A stretch of 64,000 nucleotides of DNA from Tragulus kanchil. Taxonomy: Eukaryota; Chordata; Mammalia; Artiodactyla; Tragulidae. The notes below the pieces were generated by a model. That model was not told the origin of the DNA, ran no database searches, and saw only the letters and a list, made by a program, of their open reading frames with translations. The DNA lies in contig JAIOJX010000032.1 in assembly GCA_022376925.1 (NCBI GenBank), positions 116,599,979 through 116,663,978 on the forward strand, in the 5' to 3' direction. Shown in pieces: positions 144-61,600 of the stretch (within the stretch, counting starts at the first letter, position 1; each line of letters begins with the position of its first letter). The position numbers and the translations under genes are program-made.

Positions 144-3100
144 CTGCAATGACCCAGGCAGCTCAGGCCTCTCTCACAAGTGTTTTAGGATGATGGGGAC
201 GAAAGGGGTGGGGGAGCTGGAAGAGATGTTAACCCCTAGAAGCAGCTCTGGGTCATGGAAGCAAACAGCCAGTGAGTGGAACAGGGTGGAGGCTGTGAGC
301 TCAGCCTGGCCTCCCGAGATCCTGGGGTGTCCACCTCCACCGGCTCCAGCTCTCGGGCCTGCAGCATTTGGGCCGCAGAGCCCAGGGCCCAGACACAGTG
401 GAGGAGGCGACTCACGTACCCGCTGGCTCCGCAGCGTGACACCCGCAGACTTGAAGTCGGGGAACTTGATGCCCGCTGTCTCAGGAACGGCCTGGGAGGA
501 TATGGGGAGCCGAATGTCAAGGGGAGAGGGCCCAGTGTTGGTCCCAGCCCCTCCGCATGCGCTCAGAGCCCCCGCCCTGTGTGGGCTGGCTCAGTCTCCA
601 CACCGGCTTCTCGGCCTCCTTTTTCTGGGGGAGCTTCTTCTTGGGGGCCTTGCGTTCGGTGCGCCGCTGCTCAGCAGTGGTGTCTGCTGCTGTTATCAGC
701 TTCTGCAGGTCCTGGCTGCGCTTCTCCCGCTCCTTCTTGCGGGCCTCGATCTTGCGCAGCTCCTGCAGCAGGTACTCCTCCTCCGCCACCTGGGAAGCAG
801 AGACGCCGAGTGCTGTGTGCGGGTCACGGGGCAGCGCGGGGAGACAGGAAGACGGTGGGGTTCCGGGCTGTCTGCGAGGGACCCTGAGCAGCAGGGGATC
901 GTAAAGGAGGTGAGGGCGTGGAGGGTGGAGGCAGTGGTCAGGGGTCTCAGGGCCCGGAGGAGAGTCTGGGACCGGGGCTGACCTGCTCCGGGGTCCGGTT
1001 ATACAGACGTTCCAGCTGTTCCTTCCGCCGTCGCTCGTGCCCAGCGTCAAATACTGGTATCTTGAGGTCCGTGCCTGGTACGGCCCGCACGTTGGCAAGC
1101 TTGGCACAGATGTGGTAGTACCGCTCTTTCAAGTCCTCAACAGAACGCTTCTGAGGACGGACATGGTGGTGGGGGAGGCAAAGGCTCAGAAGCATGAGGC
1201 ATGAAGGGGGTGGCCTGCTAGGCCTGAGGGTTGGGCACATGTGCAAACGCACGGCACCAGCTCACCTTGAACTGCTGGTGGTCATACCGGTCATGGATGA
1301 CGACAAAACGGAGGTCAAAGCGGCGGCTGAGGTCAAAGAGGTGGTCGGTTTCTGCCTTTGTCCATGCGTCGTCGTGCAGGTAGAGCTGGTACTCCTGCTC
1401 TGAGTACACGGGCACCTGCACGGTCTACAGGCGTGGGGGAAGGGGCACGCCCACGTCACAGCCGTCCTGCAGGCTCTAGCCCCACGACCACAGTCCCTCC
1501 TGGCTACTGCCAATCCCTGCGCTGGACAAAAGCAAATCCTCTGTCTGGGACCCTGCTCAGGACACCTGGAGATGATGTTTCCAGAGCAAGGAAACTGTCT
1601 GCTTGACCAGACTGTCGCCTGCCTCTGGATCCACTCCAGGACCAACTGCACCAAGCCTTAAGCTCCAGAGCCTTGGTAACAGAACCCATGCTCCCAACCC
1701 CATGGTTAAGGTTAGGGGCCTGCAGGTAAGTGCGTCTGTGGAGCCCAAGGGACAACTTTGGAGTAGGGCTAAGTTCCAAAGGTCCAGGAGCCCCTAGGCA
1801 GGGAACACTTGTCTGAAGCACTCCTGCCACCCAGTGGTGACAAGGAGACATACAGCTCCCCGAGCTGGCCGAGGTCACCTCTCAAGAGAAAAGGCATCTG
1901 CATCCTACTCCCAACACAGACCCCATCCCAACCCCCACTTCCCGTCCCCCGGACCTCCCTCAGAGGCAAAAGGCAGACTGGCTGAGTCTCTCAGTCAGGC
2001 CGCCCAGGAAGGAGACACTGCTCGGCTGGACCAGGGCAGTCTCCATCAAAGACCACACTGACTCTGAATGTGCTCTCAAGACCCTATGTCCAGCTGCCTC
2101 CTGGACGTCTGCTGGAGGCCCTACATACATCTCAGGCTGAGTGTGTTCAGGTGACACAGTGAACTAGACTTAACGGGCTGATCATCTCACGATATATACA
2201 AATACTGGGCCATTATGTTGTAACCTGAAGCTACTATCTATATGTGATATATAATAGTTAGACCTCAATAAAAAAAAAAATCTTCGTATGTTCAGTACTG
2301 AGCTCACTGCACTCCCTCAAACTTCCATCTCCTCCGGTCCAGATCTCAGTGTCCCCATCCCCCAAGCCAGAACCCAAGCAGCATCTTTAATGCCTACTTT
2401 TCTCCTCCCAGTTCTCTAGCTCCACCGCCACACTCCCGTCCAGACCACCACCACCCCCTTGCCTGGACAAACAGCCTCCCCACTGGCCTCTCTGCCTGTT
2501 TCATCCTCTTCCAAGCCAGTTCTCCATATGTGGCCAAGATGTGACCTCTCTGACACTCTACTTAAAGGACAGTCTTTGGACCAGGGCTGACGCAGATCTA
2601 CCAATGGTCTACGCTAAGTACAGAAATGAGAGTAAGCACTTAGAAAGCTTTATTACAATTTAACAGCAATGATATGCTGTTAAATAATTTAGAAGAGACA
2701 GAGACCTGTATTTTGTCTTTTCTTAAAATTTTATTATCTTAATTAGACTCTTGATGAATTGGAAAATTTTTAAATAGCCTTCATCATAGATAATTGTTGA
2801 AATAGAATTAATCTTAGAAGGTTAGGGGCCTGCAGGTAAGTGCGTCTGTGGAGCCCAAGGGACAACTTGGGTAGGGCTAAGTTCCAAAGGTCCAGGAGCC
2901 CCTAGGCAGGGAACACTTGTCTGAAGCACTCCTGCCACCCAGTGGTGACAAGGAGACATACAGCTCCTGAGCTGGCTGAGGTCACCTCTCAAGAGAAAAG
3001 GCATCTGCATCCTACTCCCAACACAGACCCCATCCCAACCCCCACTTCCCGTCCCCCGGACCTCCCTCAGAGGCAAAAGGCAGACTGGCTGAGTCTCTCA

Positions 3101-58677: not shown

Positions 58678-61600
58678 GTAATGAGTCTTTTGAGGCCCAC
58701 CATGAGGATTTATGCATGCCCTAACATCTCTGGGACACATCTTGTGCAGAACTAATATCAAACCATGTTAAAACCCTTATTTGCCGCTGGAAACTTAAGC
58801 AAGATTCTTTTTGATTCAAGGTGACCTCTTTTGAGAAGAGTAAACCACAGCAAGATCTCAGATGACAGATGTGACTGATACCCCACTCACATCATGAGAT
58901 TTTAGAGGCTGGATGCAGTCCTAGAGTTGGGGGAGTGAAAATCAGAAGTCCTTCATTGAGGCCATTTTCCCCGAGGTCCTCACAATTAGATCTGTCAGAA
59001 CTAAGGATGAAGTAGACTTCTCTACTGTATTACACTGGAGCTTGCAGTCCAGCAGTGAGAAAAGCAGAGCAGACAGGCATGACACTAATTCAAGAGTAGG
59101 AATGAGAGGAAAGGAAATGCCAGAGTAAGATGTTGTTAGAGGTTGACTTTCAATGAGGTCTTCATCTCAGAGAATCTCTACATTGTGATGGTCCTTCTTA
59201 GTAGAGTGTCTCCACAGTGACATTGGCCTCATGAGGGTACCCTATTTCTACACTTCCAAGTGACAGTGGCCTCTACTATCCTCTGGCTGGGAGATTTTCA
59301 CTTATGTCCAAGTGTGGACATATACAACAGTTAAATTTAAGGCCATTTATCATTTCTGTGGATTTTGTTTAGAAGAAGACTTCAGTGTCCTCAGTTTACC
59401 ATAGTCAATGGATGTAGCACCATAAGTTTTGATTACAGCCTGGGTGAATTATCATAGCTAACTGTCTGCTCTGAGAGTCAAGGATGGAGAAGCATGAGTG
59501 TGGAACTGGGGTTTGAGCTAGGTAGGGTAAACACATTTACTTTTTTTTTTTTTTTGAAGGATTCTACAACTGAAGTTCAGTTATCAGGCAATAATCAAAA
59601 GGCTTCAAGAGACCCTTACCTTGAAGCAATGGAAGAACTTGAAGCATTTTTCCAGGAGCTCAATGAAACTTACGGGTCAAGAACCTCAGCTGTACCAGAG
59701 GCAGAACTCAATGTACCTCTGACTGCCCATGAAGAGAACAGCCAAAAGAAGCCCATGCAGAATCAGGTAATGAGTCTTTTGAGGCCCACCATGAGGATTT
59801 ATGCATGCCCTAACATCTCTGGGACACATCTTGTGCAGAACTAATATCAAACCATGTTAAAACCCTTATTTGCCGCTGGAAACTTAAGCAAGATTCTTTT
59901 TGATTCAAGGTGACCTCTTTTGAGAAGAGTAAACCACAGCAAGATCTCAGATGACAGATGTGACTGATACCCCACTCACATCATGAGATTTTAGAGGCTG
60001 GATGCAGTCCTAGAGTTGGGGGAGTGAAAATCAGAAGTCCTTCATTGAGGCCATTTTCCCCGAGGTCCTCACAATTAGATCTGTCAGAACTAAGGATGAA
60101 GTAGACTTCTCTACTGTATTACACTGGAGCTTGCAGTCCAGCAGTGAGAAAAGCAGAGCAGACAGGCATGACACTAATTCAAGAGTAGGAATGAGAGGAA
60201 AGGAAATGCCAGAGTAAGATGTTGTTAGAGGTTGACTTTCAATGAGGTCTTCATCTCAGAGAATCTCTACATTGTGATGGTCCTTCTTAGTAGAGTGTCT
60301 CCACAGTGACATTGGCCTCATGAGGGTACCCTATTTCTACACTTCCAAGTGACAGTGGCCTCTACTATCCTCTGGCTGGGAGATTTTCACTTATGTCCAA
60401 GTGTGGACATATACAACAGTTAAATTTAAGGCCATTTATCATTTCTGTGGATTTTGTTTAGAAGAAGACTTCAGTGTCCTCAGTTTACCATAGTCAATGG
60501 ATGTAGCACCATAAGTTTTGATTACAGCCTGGGTGAATTATCATAGCTAACTGTCTGCTCTGAGAGTCAGGGCAAGGTGGCAGAGTCTGGGCTATCTTGG
60601 CAGGTATGAGAAAGGAGATCATATTTGATAAGACAGGTACACAGTTGTGTACCTCTGACTGCCTGTGATGAGGTCAGCCTAAAGGAATCCATGCAGATCC
60701 AGGTGATGAATCCTTGGGGGCCCACAATGAGGATTTATGCATGTTCTGTCATCCATGGACATCCAGTTCTTGTCCATCTAAAGCCTTGATTTGCCCCTTG
60801 GAAGCCTAAAGTGACTTTCTTTTTGATCCCAAGGTGACTTCCTTTGATGAGAGAAACCAAGCAGCAGTACCCCAGTTGATGGATGCCACTTACACCCCAA
60901 AGACATTTATCACTGATTGTCAAGTGACAGTTGTTAATGCAAACAAAAAGACAATTCTCAATGAAGGTAGCCAGATGAAGACCCTCAGTGATAACCAGAG
61001 CCTCTATGGAAAAAAGATGACCTTCAGTGGGGTCCAAACAACCTATCTGGGTCAGATGAAGACACTCAATGATGAGATCATTCCTCAAAGAGTTCGTATG
61101 ATGCCACCTTCCTCAGCATCATTGCCATATCCTAGAATTCTGTATGTCTCAAACTCTCATTTGATGCAAGGACAATGCCTAGAAAAGCTGAAGTGGAATC
61201 CCAAGATTCAGAGATGTCCATTGAAGAAAAGTCCTGAGACTTTGAAGCCCTACATCTGTACCTATGAGAACTGTGGGAAAGTGTATGCAAAATCTTCCCT
61301 TCTTCAAATCCATGAGCGCATGCACACTGGTGAGTAAAGACTGACGCAAGTGGCTGTCAGGGAAATAACTAAAGGCCTCTACCTTTACAAAAACACTGGG
61401 ATTATTTGGGATTGTTGCCACCTTTCTCTAAGTCTGGGACCTAGAAAACCCCAGAAAAAGTTGGCAAGTCTGAAAAGGTATATAAAGCAGTCTTAAGAAC
61501 AAACTCCAGTTCTGGTCCAGAGGCAACCTGGCTGCAGCACTTGTGTTGACTGCCTGTGATGATGGAAGAACTGGAGGGATTTGTTTGACCTCTTAAGATG

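Follow-up and report, generated by a model that had tools for sequence, protein, structure and literature searches.

Sixteen neighbouring duplications of about 1.1 kb in a 64,000-bp window are most probably assembly artefacts

Results

Sixteen pairs of near-identical neighbouring copies

We analysed a window of 64,000 bp over its whole length and found 16 direct neighbouring duplications that are almost certainly assembly artefacts of some kind and not real duplications. The form of artefact that we consider probable is a failure to merge consecutive consensus pieces at a common ~1024-bp node, as an assembler of the wtdbg type would produce. The finding is a caution for users of the record and not a discovery. 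If the pairs are artefacts, their periods add up to 17,712 surplus bases, or ~27.7% of the 64,000 in the window.

Self-BLAST of the window recovered all 16 pairs, with 98.2-100% identity between copies. The period, measured from copy-1 start to copy-2 start, was 1080-1148 bp (mean 1107 bp), and its SD was only 22 bp despite differing composition among the units (GC 0.35-0.51). Copy lengths across the 16 pairs were 1038-1148 bp. The 16 pairs and one 309-bp by-product were the sole matches in the window that were 95% identical or better over 100 bp or more (word size 16, E 1e-10, both strands), and chance is therefore excluded at those settings. The by-product comes from the overlap of pairs 9 and 10, which makes this piece occur three times. 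Apart from overlaps between neighbours (19, 309 and 117 bp), different units had in common just short diverged stretches. The whole window is free of N characters.

An earlier note on this DNA had listed 16 pairs with their copy-1 starts and a near-constant length of ~1.1 kb. BLAST confirmed both, and the positions were right to within 0-21 bp. The same note held that each unit is repeated exactly twice, which applies everywhere except at the neighbour overlaps, where 309 bp (pairs 9 and 10), 117 bp (pairs 11 and 12) and 19 bp (pairs 1 and 2) stand three times, the latter two being in part slightly degraded.

Nine of the 16 pairs have a spacer of 17-43 bp between copies. These are pair 1 (copies at 1708-2795 and 2818-3904; 22 bp), pair 2 (3886-4941 and 4972-6026; 30 bp), pair 6 (23278-24342 and 24383-25452; 40 bp), pair 7 (25624-26693 and 26718-27786; 24 bp), pair 8 (29102-30139 and 30183-31227; 43 bp), pair 9 (33233-34325 and 34343-35438; 17 bp), pair 13 (46838-47901 and 47920-48981; 18 bp), pair 14 (50728-51773 and 51808-52855; 34 bp) and pair 15 (54490-55597 and 55623-56729; 25 bp). 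Two bases separate the copies of pair 4 (13919-15038 and 15041-16161), and the copies of pair 3 (6451-7597 and 7598-8744) and pair 5 (19071-20218 and 20219-21352) abut without a spacer. The other four pairs have bases in common at the join: 6 bp in pair 10 (35130-36246 and 36241-37359), 3 bp in pair 11 (40831-41951 and 41949-43069), 33 bp in pair 12 (42953-44081 and 44049-45187) and 2 bp in pair 16 (58390-59480 and 59479-60569).

Differences between copies and the evidence of third copies

Across the 16 pairs, the copies differed by 73 events, comprising 30 substitutions and 43 indels (74 bases). By the criterion of this analysis, 26 of the 43 indels were homopolymer indels. The earlier description of the differences as largely homopolymer indels was therefore only partly right.

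We observed that 42 of the 73 events lay within 100 bp of a unit end, compared to 13.3 expected (binomial P = 8e-14, with clustered events treated as independent). Differences leaned toward the ends in 13 of the 15 pairs that had any difference; pairs 2 and 11 had none near the ends. The copies of pair 16 were identical. In pair 6, 10 of 16 differences were located away from the ends, which counts against the artefact reading.

Overlapping neighbours provide a third copy at three places (pairs 1/2, 9/10 and 11/12). At the 9/10 overlap, a base was missing at the end of copy 1 of pair 9, and an odd base stood at the start of copy 2 of pair 10. At the 11/12 overlap, the degraded one of the three was the start of copy 2 of pair 12. 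The 1/2 overlap decides nothing, because the three copies do not differ over the 19 bp concerned. At the two decidable places, all three error sites were thus on the junction side, which is what unmerged pieces predict.

The inner substitutions of pair 6 (23278-25452) were mostly changes to T in copy 2. This pair also carries a tRNA-like match, which scored 34.1 bits in copy 1 and 30.6 bits in copy 2. The changes to T and the lower tRNA-like score suggest that copy 2 of pair 6 is a poorly supported consensus.

Spacers compared with the flanks of the units

If overlapping pieces had been laid end to end, a spacer would consist either of the ragged tail of the first piece, reaching into the true downstream flank, or of a ragged head on the second piece, derived from the true upstream flank. 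Each of the nine spacers was scored against ~6,386 tiles of 100 bp taken from both strands of the window; the predicted zone, defined as flank or unit edge, made up 0.25% of the tiles. Weight was placed on the comparison with other tiles because low gap costs favour deletion-rich alignments.

The predicted zone, which was widened to include the unit edge after the match of spacer 8 there had been noticed, was unbeaten by any tile for five of the nine spacers (6, 7, 8, 14 and 15; binomial P = 1e-11), and three of nine remain when spacers 7 (tie) and 8 (widened zone) are left out. The best match of spacer 7 was at the unit start, tied with a place on the minus strand. For spacers 1, 2, 9 and 13, respectively 597, 421, 120 and 40 tiles matched better than the predicted zone, which counts against the prediction. 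Compared to random flanks, the spacers gave a Fisher P of 2.4e-6 over all nine; spacer 8 had P = 0.88 in this test because its match sits within the unit. A stricter, end-anchored spacer test gave P = 0.010.

Taken with 5 bases of context on each side, spacer 6 aligned without mismatch to 25474-25533, shortly after the downstream end of copy 2, and lacked 18 bases of that stretch. Spacer 8 corresponded to 29112-29163, the start of its own unit, with 9 deleted and 3 added bases. The best match of spacer 15 was 54439-54472, just upstream of copy 1, and that of spacer 14, a loose one, was 50686-50732, at the upstream boundary of copy 1. We would expect such a deletion-rich image of a flank where the end of a long-read consensus had thin coverage or was left unpolished.

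Unit length, spacing and type of assembler

The mean copy length was above 1024 bp by 17.5-123 bp in all 16 pairs, and all units fell between 1024 and 1152 bp; that the excess stays below half a 256-bp bin was noticed post hoc. The value of 256 bp itself had been considered before spacings were measured. A V test of the spacing at 256 gave P = 0.02 for starts, 0.054 for ends and 0.02 for midpoints. The best spacing period was 253-253.5 and not 256. Over periods of 240-275, P was 0.006, 0.027 and 0.002 (starts, ends and midpoints), or 0.011, 0.034 and 0.004 with a narrower null. When any period of 100-1200 was admitted, the corresponding values were 0.096, 0.35 and 0.03.

The grid of wtdbg2 consists of 256-bp bins, and one node is common to neighbouring edges, which the consensus step joins. 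According to a published description, the program cuts reads into 1024 segments, which serve as the vertices of a graph (PMC10391896). The pairs resemble such a node in that the units are just above 1024 bp and the spacings lean weakly to ~253-256 bp; they differ in that the grid signal is weak. Together, unit length and spacing lean fit an assembler of the wtdbg type that failed to merge adjacent consensus pieces, a reading that the 256-bp grid weakly supports.

Discussion

Origin of the pairs

The false duplications would have arisen during the assembly of noisy long reads. One ~1.1-kb stretch may have been present in both of two consecutive consensus pieces because they had a fixed-size graph node in common. 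If the overlap-and-merge step between the pieces then failed, they would have been laid end to end or joined on few matching bases. The animal's genome would then have a single copy of every unit, and the 64 kb of the record would shrink to a true span of about 46.3 kb. We infer software of the wtdbg/wtdbg2 kind and a failed joining step. The pieces were more probably consecutive graph-edge consensus pieces with a common ~1024-bp node than ordinary contig ends, because overlaps of ordinary contig ends should vary more in length. The earlier note had likewise proposed unmerged overlaps between assembled pieces, and the flank-like spacers, the end-clustered differences, the third copies and the narrow range of lengths support that proposal.

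Another program might have produced the false duplications, through unmerged overlaps of contig ends or of a contig with a gap-filling read, with no wtdbg node involved. All of the junction evidence fits any unmerged overlap, the 256-bp grid signal is weak, and homotype duplications at contig boundaries are known, one of them described as caused by a FALCON bug (PMC8081667). We nevertheless regard this source as rather unlikely: ordinary overlaps should differ widely in length, the same source puts them at about the length of reads (PMC8081667), and here all 16 units lie in the range 1024-1152 bp. A heterotype false duplication, in which both haplotypes of a locus are set side by side, would also give near-identical neighbouring copies with some substitutions (30 of 73 events here). 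With indels outnumbering substitutions (43 to 30), events clustered at unit ends, one pair (16) free of any difference and a fixed length that two haplotypes would not be expected to yield, we consider this origin extremely improbable. Fixed-stride chunked polishing was rejected as a cause, since the distance between the start of a copy 2 and that of the following copy 1 ranged over 787-6321 bp. Mobile elements were rejected as well, the units having in common just short diverged stretches once neighbour overlaps are set aside.

A real process in the animal's genome would have to duplicate fixed ~1.1-kb lengths in tandem, blind to their content. The copies are present in the record, they are near-identical direct neighbours as end joining or unequal exchange can produce, and several junctions have a few common bases or filler of a kind that can result from end joining; polymerase theta is known to copy filler from flanks. 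Here, however, the filler reads as flank sequence riddled with deletions, the copy of lower quality lies on the junction side at the decidable places, and the divergence is indel-rich and clustered at ends where an even, substitution-led divergence would be expected. Real tandem duplications vary in length and would come without degraded flank images or end-piled indel errors. To our knowledge, known rates fall far short of what 16 almost undiverged events in ~46 kb would require. Were the duplications real, they would reflect a mutational process not known so far, the alternative that the earlier note had called unprecedented; the evidence points away from it, and we give it hardly any credence. 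We also looked for an independent copy of this sequence by way of vertebrate DMAP1-locus contamination; 119 pattern matches in genome contigs and 17 in viral contigs yielded no confirmed case.

Relation to known false duplications and consequences for users

The artefact belongs to a known broad kind. The Vertebrate Genomes Project uses the term homotype false duplication for copies that stem from under-collapsed reads or from contigs whose boundaries overlap in sequence (PMC8081667, PMC9516828). The pairs in the window are like these in that one locus stands twice side by side (98.2-100% identical) and in that the differences are of the sequencing-error type (43 of 73 events are indels and 42 of 73 are near unit ends). 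As causes of the described cases, the two papers name sequencing errors or a sequence overlap where pieces meet (PMC8081667, PMC9516828). What sets the present artefact apart is its near-constant length and the lack of a gap at the join. Described cases are said to be about as long as reads and to be gapped after scaffolding (PMC8081667), whereas no N stands between the copies here; the gap is described there for the contig-boundary route after scaffolding and not for the whole class. With no gap between copies, we file the pairs under the broad homotype class only. Among the papers listed in a literature search, judged by titles and abstract openings, we recognised no account of exactly such an artefact, which is not proof that it is unpublished.

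Gene finders and variant callers could take the surplus for structural variants, tandem repeats or duplicated exons. A unit just above 1024 bp, a degraded flank at the junction and end-clustered differences together form a signature that could serve to screen other long-read assemblies for faults of this kind.

Genes and repeats in the window

Exons of DMAP1 lie on the minus strand at 520-1261, left of the first duplication, and are in frame in both pieces searched. The assignment rests on a match to PF05499 (E = 5.8e-21) and two 66-residue matches to chain 8qr1_F, DNA methyltransferase 1-associated protein 1.

The window contains four tRNA-like matches. At 37656-38670, three tandem ~340-bp copies are 88% alike and thus much more diverged than the 16 pairs; this three-fold tandem is probably real. 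We take it to look like a tRNA-derived SINE family, and the tRNA-like matches together with the ~340-bp tandem would fit tRNA-derived SINEs. The repeat features of the window presumably agree with a ruminant.

An open frame of ~130 codons within pair 16 is present in both copies on the plus strand (58363-58752 and 59458-59841), and a Pfam search with this frame gave no match. If this frame is exonic, the exon would be falsely duplicated in the record. A further open frame on the plus strand (60810-61334), adjacent to pair 16 on its right, ends in a C2H2 zinc finger. The finger matches PF00096 with E = 0.00019, below the curated cut-off, and it matches many solved zinc-finger chains. This frame may represent one exon of a zinc-finger gene, Krueppel-like or other.
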